A stretch of DNA of 64,000 nucleotides from a bacterium (lineage in GTDB: Bacteria; Bacteroidota; Ignavibacteria; SZUA-365), in assembly GCA_020444325.1 (NCBI GenBank), contig JAHLLD010000017.1:1-64000 (forward strand), read 5' to 3'. The notes under the pieces were generated by a model. The model made no database searches. It saw nothing but the letters and a program-made list of their open reading frames with translations, and was not told where the DNA came from. The translations under genes were made by a program, and so were the position numbers. Every line of letters starts with the position of its first letter. The first letter of the stretch is position 1. Positions 53,565-64,000 of this stretch are shown here, in pieces.

Positions 53565-55094
53565 ATGCCCCAGGCGCAGAGTCTTCAGTCCCCTGCAGTG
53601 CTGCGCGGAACCGGACTCCTCCTCGGCGCTGCACTGTTCGCCGTCATCCTGCTGCTTCCCATGCCGGAGGCGCTCGGAATCCACGGACAGCAGGTGCTCG
53701 CCACTGCCACACTCATGGCAGTCTGGTGGATGACTGAAGCCCTGCCCATTCCCGTCACCGCGCTGCTCCCACTCCTTCTTTTTCCCGCCTTCGGCATGAT
53801 GTCCGTCACTGATGCCGCGGCTCCGTACGCACATCCTCTTGTCTTTCTTTTTCTTGGCGGATTCGTGCTCGCCCTCGCCGTCGAACGCAGCGGGTTGCAC
53901 CGCCGCATCGCGCTCCGCGTCATCCTGATCGTGGGATCTGGTCCCGCACGTCTCGTCCTCGGCTTCATGCTCGCCACGGCTTTTCTCTCGATGTGGATTT
54001 CCAATACCGCGACCGTCATGCTCATGCTCCCCATCGCCCTCGCTGTGATCGAGCAGGTCCGCCCCGACGATGCAGACACCTCTTTCCCCCGCTTCGCCGT
54101 CGCCATCCTTCTCGGCGTCGCTTACGCGGCGAGCATCGGCGGCGTGGGTACGCTTATCGGAACGCCACCGAACATCGTTTTGGCGGGCGTGCTTTCTCAG
54201 CTGTATCCCCAGGCTCCTCCCATCGGCTTCGTGCAGTGGATGCTCTTCGGCATCCCCATCGTCCTGATTTTCCTGCCACTCACCTGGCTGCTTCTGATAC
54301 GTGTACTCCCGACCACGAGACTGCAGCACGTACGCATCGCAGGCGAGAAACGAACAGGCATCAGAGCTGCTCTGCTCGAGATGGGAACAATGAAACGCAG
54401 TGAGCGCCTGGTTCTCGCAGTATTCCTGCTGACAGCTGCGGGCTGGATATTCCGCGTTCCTCTGCAGATCGGCAGCTTGCGCATTCCCGGACTCACCGAC
54501 GTGCTGCCCGACATCACCGACACTTCCATTGCGATGGCAGCAGCCGTGCTGCTCTTCCTCCTTCCCGGGGAGAAACGTCGTCCGCTGTTCACCTGGCATG
54601 AAATCCAGCGCGGCATTCCCTGGGGCATCCTCCTGCTTTTCGGTGGCGGCTTCGCCCTCGCGCAGGGCATGCAGCAGGGCGGTGTCACCGGGTACTTCGG
54701 CAGCGCGCTGACACAACTGCAGGACATACCGATATGGGGAATGATACTGCTCACCTGCCTGCTGTTGACGTTTCTGACAGAGCTGACCTCGAATACCGCG
54801 ACAGCCAGTATTCTGATCCCGGTCATGGCCGCCGCCGCCGTGAGCCTGGGCGAGCACCCCATGCTGCTCATGCTGCCCGCCGCGCTCAATGCTTCCTTCG
54901 CCTTCATGCTCCCTGTGGCCACCCCTCCCAATGCCATCGTGTTTTCCTCGCCATGGATCGGTATCAGGACGATGGCGAAGACTGGTATCGTTCTCAACCT
55001 GATCGGTGTCGCACTCGTCACCGTCATGATGTATCTGCTCGGGACAGCCGTGTTCTCCATCAGCTTCGACAGTCTGCCGGCCTGGGTGCGTTGA
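53565..55094 (+). CDS. SLC13/DASS sodium-coupled anion (dicarboxylate) transporter
   Basis: A 509-residue protein with about 11-12 membrane helices. The two SNTAT motifs that bind Na+ and substrate are seen at about 144 (WISNTATVMLML) and 408 (LTSNTATASILIPV), with the paired PP turns in GTPPNIV and ATPPNAIVF. This is the VcINDY fold; substrates are succinate, malate, fumarate or sulphate. It imports C4-dicarboxylates for TCA use, which would fit icd and PFOR metabolism, but that is inference. The start at 53565 has no strong ribosome site. Confidence 0.93.
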   Translation: MPQAQSLQSPAVLRGTGLLLGAALFAVILLLPMPEALGIHGQQVLATATLMAVWWMTEALPIPVTALLPLLLFPAFGMMSVTDAAAPYAHPLVFLFLGGFVLALAVERSGLHRRIALRVILIVGSGPARLVLGFMLATAFLSMWISNTATVMLMLPIALAVIEQVRPDDADTSFPRFAVAILLGVAYAASIGGVGTLIGTPPNIVLAGVLSQLYPQAPPIGFVQWMLFGIPIVLIFLPLTWLLLIRVLPTTRLQHVRIAGEKRTGIRAALLEMGTMKRSERLVLAVFLLTAAGWIFRVPLQIGSLRIPGLTDVLPDITDTSIAMAAAVLLFLLPGEKRRPLFTWHEIQRGIPWGILLLFGGGFALAQGMQQGGVTGYFGSALTQLQDIPIWGMILLTCLLLTFLTELTSNTATASILIPVMAAAAVSLGEHPMLLMLPAALNASFAFMLPVATPPNAIVFSSPWIGIRTMAKTGIVLNLIGVALVTVMMYLLGTAVFSISFDSLPAWVR

Positions 55095-55946: not shown

Positions 55947-56531
55947 TTACTGCAGCGGCACGGTGACACTGATGGCGCCGCGCAGGTCGCCTGCGGAGTA
56001 GCCTGTTGCCTGATCATCAGGATAACGGTCGGCCAGGGCCTGGCGTACGTTCGCATCCAGCTCTTCGGCTGCAGCGTGACAGGCAAGGCAGGGTTTCTTG
56101 ATCGTGAGGGGTTTCATGAAACGCAGTACCTGGATACCATTTTCCGTGACAGTTTCACTATGTGTGGTCTTGAAGTCCAACGTCCCCTTTTCCTGCATCG
56201 ATGCGAAGTGCGCCAGGATGTTCTGTTCGTAGTCATCCGGAGCATCGAGAGGGTTGCGGGGTTTGGTTGTGACGCGCCGGAGCGTGACACCGTACCTGTC
56301 AGCAATTTCATTTGTAAGCGGTTGCGCTTTTTCTGCGCACACGAGAACTGCTCCCGAAGGACCGTTCTCCTTCATCGCCTTCTGCACTTCCCCCATTAAC
56401 GTTCCAGCAAGTTCCTGAGCAGCATCACGAGCTTTCGCCTCCGCCTGCTGCTGCTTTCCTTCATCCAATGCAGTATTGCCACTGCAGCCGGCGAGCAGCA
56501 TCGTGGCTGCCAGGATTGTCAGAATACGCAT
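55947..56531 (-). CDS. DUF3365 (Tll0287-like) mono-haem lipoprotein
   Basis: A 194-residue lipoprotein (lipobox LLAGC). The DUF3365 domain is clear: GAVLVCAEKAQPLTNEIADRYGV and VTTKPRNPLDAPDDYEQ. A single c-type haem site CLACH lies at about residue 150. The domain is PAS-like and in cyanobacterial members the haem is an outer-membrane or periplasmic redox/gas sensor. It is followed 4 nt upstream (on the minus strand) by the YpsA/MoCo-carrier-like gene. Its position beside the multihaem cluster suggests an associated redox role. Confidence 0.88.
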   Translation of the reverse strand: MRILTILAATMLLAGCSGNTALDEGKQQQAEAKARDAAQELAGTLMGEVQKAMKENGPSGAVLVCAEKAQPLTNEIADRYGVTLRRVTTKPRNPLDAPDDYEQNILAHFASMQEKGTLDFKTTHSETVTENGIQVLRFMKPLTIKKPCLACHAAAEELDANVRQALADRYPDDQATGYSAGDLRGAISVTVPLQ

Positions 56532-57108: not shown

Positions 57109-57137
57109 TTGACGCGAATATCATAAAATCATATTAT
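57109..57137 (+). promoter_or_regulatory. Candidate promoter overlapping the NapC-type gene start
   Basis: TTGACG (57109-57114) and TATTAT (57132-57137) are 17 nt apart, 5 of 6 matches each. The -10 box overlaps the first ATG at 57136, so if used, transcription starts downstream of it and translation would begin at the ATG 57169. Confidence 0.5.
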
Positions 57138-58659
57138 GAGCAAGTCCACCAAAAATAAGAGCCTATCAATGCCCAAACTTCCCTCCTCCGTTTATAATCC
57201 CATAAGTCTCACCGGCGTCGGTATCGCACTCGTCTCTTTCGGTACCATACTCGTGTTCTTCGTCATGGATGTCATGGGTTACACGAGTTCGCCGTACCTG
57301 GGGATTTTCACCTACATGATAATCCCGGGCATCCTGATCCTTGGACTGCTGCTGGTGCCGTTCGGTGTATGGATGGAAAAACGGAGACTGCGCAAGCATG
57401 GGGGGAAGACGCGCAAATACATGCTTATCGACCTCAACGAGCCCACGCATCGCGCCGCGGTGATGGTCTTTGTTGTTGGCACCATGCTGCTTATCGTCGT
57501 GTCTGCCGCCGGGACATATCAGGCGTACAATTACTCGGAATCGGTGGAATTCTGCGGCGAGGTCTGTCACGAGGTGATGCATCCGGAATACATGGCCTAT
57601 CAGCATTCCCCTCACGCGCGTGTGCTCTGCGCCGAATGCCATATCGGTGAGGGCGCGGACTGGTTCGTCAAGGCCAAGATATCCGGCGCCTACCAGGTAT
57701 ACTCCGTGATCTTCAACAAGTTCAGCCGTCCGATCGAGACCCCCATTGCGAATCTGCGTCCCGCACGCGAGACCTGTGAGCATTGCCACTGGCCGAGCAA
57801 GTTCAGCAGTGACAAGAAGCTGGAGAAAATTTATTTCCCGATCGACACAGTCGATGCGCAGCCCTGGCGCATCACCATGATGCTCAAAATCGGTGGTGGA
57901 CAGAGTGAACTGGGTCCCACCGAAGGTATTCACTGGCATATGAACACCGAGAACAAGGTCCGCTACATCGCCGTCGACGAAAAGAGGCAGGAAATCCCCT
58001 GGGTGGAATCCACAGACCTCGATGGTGTCACCCGGGTATTCCGCGCCGAGGACAGCGAGTATGGAGACACGGACCTCGAAAAATTTGAAACCCGCAAAAT
58101 GGATTGCATCGACTGCCACAATCGTCCATCGCACATCTATTATCCTCCCTTCCGTACCATCAACGATGCCATGGCCGGCGAGCGCATTGCGAGCACCCTC
58201 CCCAACATCCGCGCCATCGCCTCTCATGCACTGACGCGCGAATACGCATCGCTGGAAGAAGCGCTTACCACCATACCAGACATTGTAAAGGATGAGTATC
58301 GCACGCATGCACCTGAGGTGCTTCGCGAGCGCGGCGCCGAGGTCGACAGCGGTATCGTGGAAATCCAGCGCATCTTTGAACGAAACTTCTTTCCTTCCAT
58401 GCGCGTCAGCTGGAAGGGATATCCCAACAATATCGGTCACATGTATGACGTCGGCTGTTTCCGCTGTCACGACAACAAACATGTCACCGAAGACGGCGAA
58501 GTCATTTCCAATGACTGCAACCTGTGTCATACCATCGTCACTCAGGGTCCTCCGGGCGCAACCGTGAGCGATCAAAACGGCATGCCATTTACGCATCCGG
58601 CAAATATTGACGAGGCATGGAAAGAAGTACCCTGCTCGGATTGCCATCTCGGGATCTGA
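57136..58659 (+). CDS. NapC/NirT-type multihaem quinol dehydrogenase (seven haem motifs)
   Basis: A 507-residue membrane cytochrome. Two or three N-terminal membrane helices (about 25-125) are followed by a periplasmic part with CGEVCH (a CXXXCH site, about 140), CAECH, CEHCH, CIDCH, CFRCH, CNLCH and CSDCH: six CXXCH and one CXXXCH. The block FCGEVCHEVMHPEYMAYQHSPHARVLC is the NapC/NirT/NrfH pattern with Met/His ligands after the first haem. It oxidises menaquinol and passes electrons to periplasmic partners. The first ATG (57136) overlaps a promoter-like -10, so the true start may be 57169. Confidence 0.9.
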   Translation: MSKSTKNKSLSMPKLPSSVYNPISLTGVGIALVSFGTILVFFVMDVMGYTSSPYLGIFTYMIIPGILILGLLLVPFGVWMEKRRLRKHGGKTRKYMLIDLNEPTHRAAVMVFVVGTMLLIVVSAAGTYQAYNYSESVEFCGEVCHEVMHPEYMAYQHSPHARVLCAECHIGEGADWFVKAKISGAYQVYSVIFNKFSRPIETPIANLRPARETCEHCHWPSKFSSDKKLEKIYFPIDTVDAQPWRITMMLKIGGGQSELGPTEGIHWHMNTENKVRYIAVDEKRQEIPWVESTDLDGVTRVFRAEDSEYGDTDLEKFETRKMDCIDCHNRPSHIYYPPFRTINDAMAGERIASTLPNIRAIASHALTREYASLEEALTTIPDIVKDEYRTHAPEVLRERGAEVDSGIVEIQRIFERNFFPSMRVSWKGYPNNIGHMYDVGCFRCHDNKHVTEDGEVISNDCNLCHTIVTQGPPGATVSDQNGMPFTHPANIDEAWKEVPCSDCHLGI

Positions 58660-58811: not shown

Positions 58812-58885
58812 CTCGTGAAAAAACAATAGTATATCGCACATCTGACCAGGCAACACACATGCACCTCCCACCCAAGGCCCATTCG

Positions 58886-61066
58886 ATGCCTGCAAAAAAG
58901 ACTTTGATCCCCGCATCTCTCCTTCTCCTCATGATTTTCCTCTTTCCGGCCACCGTGTTCGCACAGTCGGCGGAGGAATGCCTCATGTGTCACAACGACC
59001 CCGAGTTCGAGATGGAGAAGAACGGACGGACCGTCTCCATCTACGCGAATCCTGCCGTGCTGAAAAAATCACCGCACGCGGATCTCGATTGCGTTTCCTG
59101 TCACACCGGTTTTGATCCGGAGGAACTGCCGCATAAGGAAAATATCACCCCGGTGCGCTGCACCAGCTGTCACCAGGACGCCGTCATGGACCATCAGTTC
59201 CATGCCGTGCAGCTGAGTCTTGCGAGTTCGCAGGGCAAGCTCGATGCCTCCTGCAAGCAATGCCACGGCAAGCACAACGTGCTGCCGCTCGACAGCGAAG
59301 AAAACCCCTTCCACGCCACGAACATGGCGGAAGCCTGTGGCAAGTGTCACCCCGACGTCGTCGCGACATTCAGCAAGTCCGAACACGGCAAGGCCCTGGC
59401 AGCTGACGTGAAGGGTGCGCCGACCTGCATCAACTGTCACTCCCGCGACGTGACCGGTCACAAGGGCAAGCTCAGCAAGCTCGAGACGAAGCGTATCCAG
59501 GAAGAACTCTGCCTCGAATGTCATCATGACAACGAGGACGTGCGCAGCCGCATGGCGCCCACCGCCAGTTTCATCATGGCGTATGAAAAGAGTGTGCACG
59601 GCATGGCGCTGGCACGCGGCAACGGCGACGCGGCGAACTGCGTCGATTGCCACGGCAGCCATGAAATGAAGCGTTCGTACGATCCGGATTCCCGCACGCA
59701 CAAGATGCATGTGGCCGAGGACTGCGGGCAGTGCCACACGGAAATCGCCGCCGAGTACAAGAAGAGTATTCACGGGCAGGCGGTCGCGAAGGGAAATCTT
59801 GATTCCCCGACCTGCATCAACTGTCATGGTGAGCACAACATCCTTCCGACCAACGATCCGAATTCCCCGGTTGCCGCGCAGAACGTTTCAAAGCAGGTGT
59901 GCAGTCCCTGTCACAGTTCGCTGCAGTTCTCCGAGAAATACGGCTTCAACACCAAGCAGACGCGGAGTTACGAAGACAGCTATCACGGACTCGCCCTCAA
60001 GGGCGGAAGCACCCAGGTGGCAAACTGTGCATCATGCCACGGAGTGCATAACATCCTGCCCTCGAGTGATCCGAACAGCCGCATCAACAAGGCCAATCTC
60101 GTCGCGACATGCGGCAGCTGTCATCCCAATGCCAACGTCCGTTTTGCCACGGGCAAGATTCACGTGACGGAGGATGATGAGGAAGACAGTCCGATCGTGT
60201 TCTGGATCACCAATATCTACATCATCCTCATCGTGGTGGTCATCGGCGGCATGCTTGCGCACAACCTGCTCGATTTCCGGCGCAAGGCCACGCACAAGCT
60301 GAAAACCCGTCGCGGACATTATCCGCATCACAGTGCCGGTGGCGCGCGCATGCACGTTCGCATGACGCTCAATGAACGATTGCAGCACGGTTCATTGCTG
60401 GTCAGTTTCATCCTGCTCGTCATCACCGGGTTCATGCTGCGCTTCCCCGATGCGTGGTGGGTTTCATGGATTCGTGAAGTGAGCTCCGGCGCCTTCGACG
60501 CGCGCTCGGTGATTCACCGCATCGCCGGTGTTGTCATTATCGCAGCCAGCCTCTATCATATTTTCTACCTGGCCGGGACGAAGCGCGGACGACAACTCTT
60601 CAAAGACCTGCTTCCGAAATGGAAAGACGCCACCGATGCCGTCGGTATTCTCAAATACAACCTCGGTTTCTCGGATGAAAAGCCGAAGTTTGACCGCTTC
60701 AGCTATATCGAGAAGTCTGAGTACTGGGCTCTTGTCTGGGGAAACATCGTCATGGGCGCCACTGGCATCATCATGTGGTTCGACGAGTTCTTCCTCGGTA
60801 TTTTCACGAAGCTCGGTTATGACATCTCCCGTACGATTCACTATTACGAAGCCTGGCTTGCGATGCTTGCCATCCTGGTCTGGCATATCTACTTCGTCAT
60901 CTTCAATCCTGACGTCTACCCGATGAACCTCGCATGGATCAAGGGCACACTGACGGAAGAGGAAATGGAAGATGAACATCCTCTCGAACTTGAACGCATC
61001 CGTGCAAAACGAAAGGAGGAAGGTGCGCAGGACGACATGATCGACATCCCGGTAGATCCGGAATAA
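58886..61066 (+). CDS. Fusion of a 13-haem cytochrome c domain with a b-type cytochrome membrane domain (CbcL-like)
   Basis: A 726-residue protein. Start 58886 is chosen for AAGG at 8 nt and a clean signal peptide (MPAKKTLIPASLLLLMIFLF, ending VFAQS); 58859 is an alternative. Thirteen CXXCH motifs follow in the periplasmic part (about 35-420: CLMCH, CVSCH, CTSCH, CKQCH, CGKCH, CINCH, CLECH, CVDCH, CGQCH, CINCH, CSPCH, CASCH, CGSCH). A membrane anchor (ITNIYIILIVVVIGGML) leads into a b-type, FdnI/HydC-like domain with membrane His candidates in ERLQHGSLLVSF, VIHRIAG, IHYYEA and VWHIYF. The layout matches Geobacter CbcL, a menaquinol oxidase of metal respiration. Likely an inner-membrane electron exit. 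Confidence 0.9.
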   Translation: MPAKKTLIPASLLLLMIFLFPATVFAQSAEECLMCHNDPEFEMEKNGRTVSIYANPAVLKKSPHADLDCVSCHTGFDPEELPHKENITPVRCTSCHQDAVMDHQFHAVQLSLASSQGKLDASCKQCHGKHNVLPLDSEENPFHATNMAEACGKCHPDVVATFSKSEHGKALAADVKGAPTCINCHSRDVTGHKGKLSKLETKRIQEELCLECHHDNEDVRSRMAPTASFIMAYEKSVHGMALARGNGDAANCVDCHGSHEMKRSYDPDSRTHKMHVAEDCGQCHTEIAAEYKKSIHGQAVAKGNLDSPTCINCHGEHNILPTNDPNSPVAAQNVSKQVCSPCHSSLQFSEKYGFNTKQTRSYEDSYHGLALKGGSTQVANCASCHGVHNILPSSDPNSRINKANLVATCGSCHPNANVRFATGKIHVTEDDEEDSPIVFWITNIYIILIVVVIGGMLAHNLLDFRRKATHKLKTRRGHYPHHSAGGARMHVRMTLNERLQHGSLLVSFILLVITGFMLRFPDAWWVSWIREVSSGAFDARSVIHRIAGVVIIAASLYHIFYLAGTKRGRQLFKDLLPKWKDATDAVGILKYNLGFSDEKPKFDRFSYIEKSEYWALVWGNIVMGATGIIMWFDEFFLGIFTKLGYDISRTIHYYEAWLAMLAILVWHIYFVIFNPDVYPMNLAWIKGTLTEEEMEDEHPLELERIRAKRKEEGAQDDMIDIPVDPE

Positions 61067-61105: not shown

Positions 61106-63247
61106 ATGCTGAAAAATTTCATCATCCCTTCTCTGCGCGAGGTCTCGCGGGCCGCATTTGCGGCCTGCGCGATCCTCGCGTTTTTTGCTGTTCCAACACA
61201 GCTCCAGGCACAGGACAACGACAACTGTTACATGTGCCATGAAGACCGTGATCTCAAGGGCGAGGTCAACGGCAGAACCCGTTCGGTTTTCGTCGACGAA
61301 AAAATAATCACCAATTCCGTACACGGAGAATTCGAGTGCACGATCTGTCATCTCGACGTCGACCCTGACGATCTACCGCATGACGAAGACCTCGAACCCG
61401 TGGATTGCGGCACCTGTCACGGTGAAGTGCAGGAGAAGCACGCGATTTCCCTTCACGGGAAGGCCATCAAGCGTGGCGACCCGCTCGCTCCCCGCTGCAC
61501 CACCTGCCACGGTACACATAACATCATGCATGTCAAGGATCCTGCTTCCCCCGTCCGCGCAGCGAACATCCCCTTCCTCTGCGGCAGCTGTCACAGTGAA
61601 GGTTCGCCGGTGCAGCGACAGCGGAAAATTCACCAGGATCACATCCTCGAGAACTACTCTGAGAGTATTCACGGAGAAGGGTTGCTGAAGAAAGGACTCA
61701 CTGTTGCGGCCACCTGTATCTCCTGCCATACCGCGCATGAGATTCTCCCGCATACGGATCCCAACTCCAGTATCGCCCGCCGCAACATCGCGAAGACCTG
61801 CTCGAATTGTCACGCACAGATCGAGGAGGTACATGTCAAGGTGATCAAGGGCGAATTGTGGGAAAAGCAGCCACATCTGCTCCCGGCCTGCGTAGACTGC
61901 CACCAGCCGCATAAGATCCGCAACGTGTTCTATGATCAGGGGACCGCGGACGCGCAGTGTCTCGAATGTCACCAGCAGCCGAATCTCCGCGCTGCTGACG
62001 GACGCTCGATGTTCGTCAACTACCAGGATCTTGGACACTCACGCCACGTCAGCGTCGCCTGCAGCCAGTGTCACTCAGGTGTGAACAACTCGCATACGCG
62101 TCCCTGTGACAACATTACGAGCAAGGTCGACTGTGCTGCATGTCATGCGGAGACGGTAGACCACTACAACCAGAGCATCCATGGTGTGATGGCGGCGAAA
62201 AACGACCCGGACGCCCCCTCCTGCCTCGACTGCCACGGAACGCACAGCATACTCGGGAAAAATAATCCGAACTCCCGTACCTTCCCCACGCGTGTCCCCA
62301 TGCTCTGTGGCGAATGTCACCGAGCGGGACAAAAGGGCGCGATCCGGACGAAGGATGGCGAGGATGTCGTCAGCCACTATATTGAAAGTATACACGGCAA
62401 GGGTCTGTTGCAGAGCGGTCTCGTCGTCACCGCGCAGTGTACGGACTGCCACACTGCACACGACACACAGCCGAGTTCCGACCCGAGGTCAAGCGTAAAT
62501 CACGCAAACGTCAGCACCACCTGCGGCAAATGCCATCACGGCATTGAGGAGCAGTTCGCACAGAGCATCCACAGCCGTCTCGTCAACGATACAGACAAGG
62601 AGCTGCCGACCTGCAACGACTGCCACAGTGCGCATACCATACGCCGATCCGACGAAAGCGGCTTCAAACTGGAAATCATGGATCAGTGCGGCCGCTGCCA
62701 CGAACACATTGCCGAAACCTACTTCGACACATATCACGGCAAGGTTTCGCAGCTGGGATATACCAAGACGGCAAAATGCTACGACTGCCACGGTGCGCAT
62801 GATATCCTGCCGCCATCCAATCCAAAGTCGCATTTGAGCCATCAAAACGTGGTCGAAACCTGCAAGAAATGCCATCCATCGGCCAACAGACAGTTCGCCG
62901 GCTATCTCTCGCATGCCACGCATCATGATCCGGACAAGTATCCCTATCTGTACTGGGCATTCTGGGGCATGACCATTCTGCTTATCGTTACCTTTATCCT
63001 CGGCGGAACACATACTATTCTCTGGTTGCCACGCGCGTTTCGCTGGCGTAAGGAGTTACAGAAAATGGAGCGCGAAGCGGAAGAGTCCGTCGAAGACATC
63101 GCATGGAGCGAAACCATCGCGCCCACACCACCGAGCGAGAGAAGAAAAGCTGAGGAAGAAGCTGCCAGGAAGAAGGATGCAACCGCGGACAACGAAACAG
63201 ACAACGAAGACGAACATACAGATGAAAGAAAGGAGGACGACCAGTAA
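61106..63247 (+). CDS. 19-haem c-type cytochrome with C-terminal membrane anchor
   Basis: A 713-residue protein with a signal peptide (about 1-35) and 19 CXXCH motifs, from CYMCH (about 41) through CGRCH, CYDCH and CKKCH (about 610). Many are in repeated blocks of the form SIHG..L..G....C..CH..H.I, typical of NrfA-unrelated cytochrome c3/c7-like strings with bis-His haems. A single membrane helix near 630-655 (AFWGMTILLIVTFILGG) anchors it, followed by an acidic/basic cytosolic tail of about 60 residues. It follows the fusion gene by 39 nt and overlaps the next gene by one base. Likely a long periplasmic wire. Confidence 0.9.
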   Translation: MLKNFIIPSLREVSRAAFAACAILAFFAVPTQLQAQDNDNCYMCHEDRDLKGEVNGRTRSVFVDEKIITNSVHGEFECTICHLDVDPDDLPHDEDLEPVDCGTCHGEVQEKHAISLHGKAIKRGDPLAPRCTTCHGTHNIMHVKDPASPVRAANIPFLCGSCHSEGSPVQRQRKIHQDHILENYSESIHGEGLLKKGLTVAATCISCHTAHEILPHTDPNSSIARRNIAKTCSNCHAQIEEVHVKVIKGELWEKQPHLLPACVDCHQPHKIRNVFYDQGTADAQCLECHQQPNLRAADGRSMFVNYQDLGHSRHVSVACSQCHSGVNNSHTRPCDNITSKVDCAACHAETVDHYNQSIHGVMAAKNDPDAPSCLDCHGTHSILGKNNPNSRTFPTRVPMLCGECHRAGQKGAIRTKDGEDVVSHYIESIHGKGLLQSGLVVTAQCTDCHTAHDTQPSSDPRSSVNHANVSTTCGKCHHGIEEQFAQSIHSRLVNDTDKELPTCNDCHSAHTIRRSDESGFKLEIMDQCGRCHEHIAETYFDTYHGKVSQLGYTKTAKCYDCHGAHDILPPSNPKSHLSHQNVVETCKKCHPSANRQFAGYLSHATHHDPDKYPYLYWAFWGMTILLIVTFILGGTHTILWLPRAFRWRKELQKMEREAEESVEDIAWSETIAPTPPSERRKAEEEAARKKDATADNETDNEDEHTDERKEDDQ

Positions 63248-64000
63248 TGGCCCAGACTCCCACCTTTAGAACCGAGAAACATTTCCGCCGATTCACACGT
63301 CTCGAGCGCCTGCTGCATATCCTGATGATCATCAGCTTCATCAGCCTGGCGCTCACGGGTATGACGCTGAAGTTTTCCTACACTGGATGGGCGGTGCTCC
63401 TCTCTCATCTTTTCGGCGGCTTCCAGTTCGCCGGTTATATCCACCGTGCCGCTGCCGTGATCATGTTCATCATATTCACAACGCATGTCTACGATCTCAC
63501 GGTCAACAAGCGCCGCGAATACGGAAGTTGGAAGGGGTTACTTTTCGGTCCCAACAGCATGCTGCCCAAGCGCAAGGATCTTGACGACTTCATCGGATCG
63601 ATGAAGTGGTTTCTCGGACGCGGCGAGCGTCCCCAGTACGGCCGCTGGACCTACTGGGAGAAGTTCGATTACTTCGCTGTGTTCTGGGGAATATTCGTGA
63701 TCGGATCTACCGGACTCACCCTCTGGTTCCCCGAGTTCTTCACGAACTTCATGCCGGGCTGGATGCTGAACGTCGCGACGATTATCCACAGCGACGAAGC
63801 CCTGCTCGCCACCGGTTTCATTTTCACGGTGCATTTTTTCAACACGCATCTGCGTCCCGAGAAATTCCCGATGGATCTCGTGGTCTTCACTGGCCGCATG
63901 CCCGTGCACGAACTCAAGCTCGACAAGCCCGAAGAATTCGAAAAACTGAAAGCCGAGGGCAAGCTCGCCGACCATCTCGTCGAACCCTATCCCCCCGTCG
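63247..64000 (+). CDS. b-type cytochrome (formate dehydrogenase gamma / cytochrome b561-like), 3' end cut by window
   Basis: At least 251 residues with no stop before the window end. The ATG overlaps the stop of the 19-haem gene (TAATG). It has about four membrane helices and His candidates in ERLLHILMIISF (helix 1), AGYIHRAAAVIMF (helix 2) and IIHSDEALLAT and VHFFNTHLRPEKFP in the last part. It resembles the membrane half of the upstream fusion, so the 19-haem protein and this one look like a split version of the same type of complex: membrane quinol site plus haem string. Confidence 0.85.
   Translation, partial: MAQTPTFRTEKHFRRFTRLERLLHILMIISFISLALTGMTLKFSYTGWAVLLSHLFGGFQFAGYIHRAAAVIMFIIFTTHVYDLTVNKRREYGSWKGLLFGPNSMLPKRKDLDDFIGSMKWFLGRGERPQYGRWTYWEKFDYFAVFWGIFVIGSTGLTLWFPEFFTNFMPGWMLNVATIIHSDEALLATGFIFTVHFFNTHLRPEKFPMDLVVFTGRMPVHELKLDKPEEFEKLKAEGKLADHLVEPYPPV

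Follow-up and report, generated by a model that had tools for sequence, protein, structure and literature searches.

How a single polypeptide comes to join a multihaem c-type cytochrome to a b-type membrane domain in a member of the Ignavibacteria, and what such a protein might do there, are the questions raised by one gene in the 64,000-nucleotide stretch of DNA analysed here (the window). The gene lies on the forward strand (58859..61066) as an intact frame of 735 aa with no interruption. Its open reading frame, motifs, Pfam matches and structural model indicate a signal peptide, a 13-haem c domain, an anchor helix and a four-helix b domain in a CbcL-like arrangement. Translation more likely begins at the ATG at 58886 than at 58859, since the former gives a better signal peptide (MPAKKTLIPASLLLLMIFLFPATVFA) and an equivalent start, MPKKK, is found in one relative. 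Thirteen CxxCH motifs lie within residues 41-418, against a mean of 0.06 and a maximum of 2 in residue-shuffled versions of the protein, so that a chance origin of the motifs was rejected. Pfam recognises c7/c3 cytochrome domains N-terminally, and PF01292 covers residues 502-684 of the C-terminal half (E 1.2e-15). Motifs, PF01292 and model therefore agree with the earlier note, which had read thirteen motifs, a membrane anchor and a four-helix b domain in one chain. The frameshift that it had considered, under which the c and b halves would be separate genes, was rejected because there is a single open frame and the orthologues are likewise fused.

The periplasmic 13-haem domain occupies residues 41-435 (58979..60163, forward strand). 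It has 13 conserved histidines outside the motifs, 11 of them in at least 98% of 62 proteins and two in 82%; these are candidate second ligands of the c haems. A conserved candidate for all 13 haems supports a role in electron transfer. The four-helix b domain follows at residues 504-681 (60368..60901, forward strand). The AlphaFold2 model of the whole protein (mean pLDDT 74, pTM 0.50) contains five long membrane helices, the anchor and four others, at 445-484, 504-528, 543-573, 616-640 and 651-681. Hydropathy likewise gives a signal segment and five membrane segments, in line with the approximately six of the CbcL/MtrH/MtoC family. The b half matches FdnI and HyaC, the b subunits of Escherichia coli formate dehydrogenase N and hydrogenase 1, with Z scores of 15.3 (over 206 residues) and 10.9, respectively. 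As both subunits belong to quinone-reactive enzymes, these matches support a quinol oxidoreductase. H510, H553, H661 and H676 align with FdnI H18, H57, H155 and H169 and are present in every sequence covering those positions, as expected of the membrane histidines of the CbcL/MtrH/MtoC family. Assignment as a formate dehydrogenase subunit gamma (TIGR01583) was rejected, the score being 53.8 bits against a curated cut-off of 115.85.

The earlier note had found such a fusion surprising in an FCB-type genome. This surprise does not hold: a near full-length fused protein occurs in 11 of the 12 genomes of the organism's own family, making it the standard form in close relatives, the very outcome that the note had named as refuting its reading, and presence across the class renders the fusion unremarkable in its own lineage. 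Matches at 1e-20 were found in 41 of 61 related genomes, and a sample of 198 genomes from the phylum gave 30 with a match at 1e-60, 29 of which come from the organism's own class. A scan of named genomes returned at least 433 relatives; the best 80 of these are Ignavibacteria and Bacteroidota records, with Verrucomicrobiota, Acidobacteriota, Gemmatimonadota, Calditrichota and a few others, and include no Geobacter sequences. Plasmid-borne relatives were looked for and none were found. Thirteen is the commonest haem motif count among relatives, most others having 11-19 and one distant relative 8. A published survey had already placed CbcL/MtrH/MtoC homologues with 3-23 motifs in 15 phyla, including Ignavibacteriae and Bacteroidetes (Zhong and Shi 2018, PMC6295460). 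The fused protein is thus of a known kind and no oddity.

Separate trees of the c and b halves gave concordant histories. Across 106 fused proteins the distances in the two trees correlate at 0.84, compared with 0.33 for the best of 500 shuffles, a rough guide only because shuffling ignores relatedness; the two halves probably travelled together. In a joint tree, built by a quick method, the organism's own family forms one branch (support 99) inside a 13-haem branch (99) that also contains 13 Verrucomicrobiota, two Gemmatimonadota, two Acidobacteriota and one Armatimonadota rows. The single family branch does not indicate a recent acquisition, and a recent lateral gain by this genome is unsupported. 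Of the two origins offered by the earlier note, lateral spread or an older lineage, the second is favoured; sharing across phyla is visible in the tree, with no resolved direction.

The fused gene belongs to a module of four. Ahead of it lies the gene for a 7-haem ImcH-like cytochrome, and behind it follow those for an anchored cytochrome with 19 haems and for a b cytochrome encoded on its own. The upstream gene (57136..58659, forward strand; 507 aa), identified by motifs, Pfam and hydropathy, has three N-terminal membrane helices, one CX3CH and six CX2CH motifs, and a NapC/NirT N-terminal region. The published hallmarks of ImcH, three N-terminal membrane helices, one CX3CH, 5-9 CX2CH and a NapC/NirT region (PMC6295460), are therefore all present. 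Downstream, motifs, Pfam and the protein tail identify a 19-haem cytochrome (61106..63247, forward strand) with a C-terminal anchor helix and a matching histidine, H636. It is the c partner of the next gene, with which it shares a single base. That gene (63247..64000 in the window, ending at 64098 on the contig; forward strand) encodes a b561-type cytochrome b of 283 aa, which corresponds, in split form, to the b domain of the fusion. Together the 19-haem protein and the separate b cytochrome are a split version of the fused design, and a single branch sets this type apart in the c tree as well as in the b tree (support 100 and 99). The module would set three candidate quinol oxidases side by side. 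Of 42 loci in which a 13-haem fusion is flanked by 5 kb at either end, 31 contain an ImcH-like gene and 20 a 19-haem gene. Conservation of these neighbours in related loci supports a role in extracellular respiration.

Two loci elsewhere (L058 and L059) encode an 18-haem protein with an anchor helix together with a separate b gene, possibly the product of fission at the linker. Beyond the b561-type gene, on the opposite strand, lie genes for a DUF1634 protein and a TauE-type protein. The ImcH-like gene is adjoined on its other side by a gene on the opposite strand (55947-56531) for a Tll0287-like (PF11845) protein with one CxxCH, and a one-haem gene occupies this position in most of the same-family loci looked at. 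A Na:sulfate/citrate-type symporter is encoded at 53565-55094; most of those loci have a multi-helix protein of equal size there.

These data allow us to propose, with a probability of about 0.75, that the fused protein acts in the inner membrane as a menaquinol:cytochrome c oxidoreductase, is of the CbcL/MtrH/MtoC kind and feeds extracellular electron transfer. We infer that the b domain would oxidise quinol and that the electrons would cross two b haems, whose ligands, by analogy with FdnI, would be H510/H676 and H553/H661. The 13 bis-histidine c haems of the periplasmic domain would receive them next. From there they would pass to a small periplasmic cytochrome and on to an outer-membrane porin-cytochrome conduit. 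The organism's own genome has a conduit gene set on contig C11, which codes for a barrel, for proteins with 4 and 11 haems and for a 5-haem protein that starts like a lipoprotein; it corresponds to the porin and 14-haem genes near the fusion in related loci. The barrel, with 24 predicted strands, matches outer-membrane barrels in Foldseek, MtrB not being among the 50 matches listed. Given this conduit elsewhere in the genome and a search of the same genome that gave no match to NrfA, the protein is best read as a quinol oxidase serving extracellular electron transfer. Several points weigh against it. The conduit set lies apart from the fused gene. Electrons could take other routes, as two layouts (L168 and L167, on contigs C4 and C13) resemble, in sequence and gene order, alternative complex III clusters, one of them beside cytochrome oxidase genes. 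Finally, MtoC relatives are thought to run in the opposite direction (PMC6295460). Contig C6 of the same genome also encodes a bc-type cytochrome b with an 11-haem protein.

The last of these points leads to the stronger of two rivals, that the protein works in reverse, as a quinone reductase taking electrons from Fe(II) or a partner cell outside, like MtoC. The family includes both directions and no sequence feature separates them, but the fusion adjoins an ImcH-like gene, and ImcH homologues have so far been tied to Fe(III)-reducing bacteria only (PMC6295460); we consider reverse working unlikely. Less probable still is a quinol oxidase whose electrons go to a reductase in the periplasm and not to an acceptor outside the cell. 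NapC/NirT-type and multihaem proteins often supply periplasmic nitrite, hydroxylamine or sulfur-compound reductases, and the c half resembles hydroxylamine oxidoreductases and MtrA in fold (Z near 8, which may be mere common multihaem packing); against this, both a porin (barrel) and a 14-haem conduit gene lie near the fusion in 18 related loci, and nitrite reduction through NrfA, the reductase searched for, was rejected for want of a match in this genome.

The anchor helix (residues 445-484; 60191..60310, forward strand), placed by the model and alignments, carries an invariant histidine, H468 (codon 60260-60262), found in 107 of 107 distinct proteins of the fused type. H567 on helix II is kept in 161 of 162 sequences. 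With these two, the conserved membrane histidines number six, two above the need of a two-haem FdnI-type domain. Of 41 standalone b genes examined, three had no upstream c gene found, and for another five the closest c gene upstream codes for a fusion that already includes a b domain. The remaining 33 are c/b pairs, and in each of them the membrane helix of the c partner has a histidine at its end (tails read by eye). FdnH and HyaA likewise show a histidine where their tails span the membrane-helix region, so that the anchor-helix histidine may be ancient in such modules. In hydrogenase, a histidine of the anchor helix matters for quinone reduction; our literature search on it found no paper. 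Tentatively, and with the odds against it, the anchor helix could be a working part of the b domain, with H468 and H567, both near the cytoplasmic face as judged from topology, binding a third b haem or forming a quinol site; in split versions the c subunit would give the ligand across the subunit border. What appears to be new is the occurrence of H468 in all fused proteins and of a matching histidine in the c partners of the 33 split pairs. H468 and H567 offer a concrete, testable residue pair through which contact of such proteins with the quinone pool might be understood.

Comparison with known systems most likely places the protein in the CbcL/MtrH/MtoC family, with which it shares candidate bis-histidine ligands and the order of its parts, a multihaem c domain at the N terminus followed in one chain by a b domain in the membrane. 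Its 13 CX2CH motifs ahead of PF01292 in one chain fall within the 3-23 of that family, and its 735 aa within the published range of 416-1034. The likeness to the Geobacter CbcL fusion drawn by the earlier note is borne out in architecture, a multihaem c domain and a b domain in one chain; when compared by architecture and published description, the candidate bis-histidine ligands agree and the haem count differs, CbcL having 9 c haems and this protein 13. A further difference is that the fused gene sits in a four-gene module with ImcH-like and 19-haem/b genes. The upstream protein resembles the ImcH family in its length, three membrane helices and one CX3CH plus six CX2CH motifs, and differs in adjoining a CbcL-like gene. 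FdnI and HyaC have the four-helix fold and four haem-ligating histidines in common with the b domain, whereas the fused protein carries its partner domain, a multihaem c domain, within one chain, and its additional H567 corresponds to M in FdnI and to R in HyaC. With such proteins, a class-wide set of probable inner-membrane electron exits would join the few that experiments have established in Geobacter.
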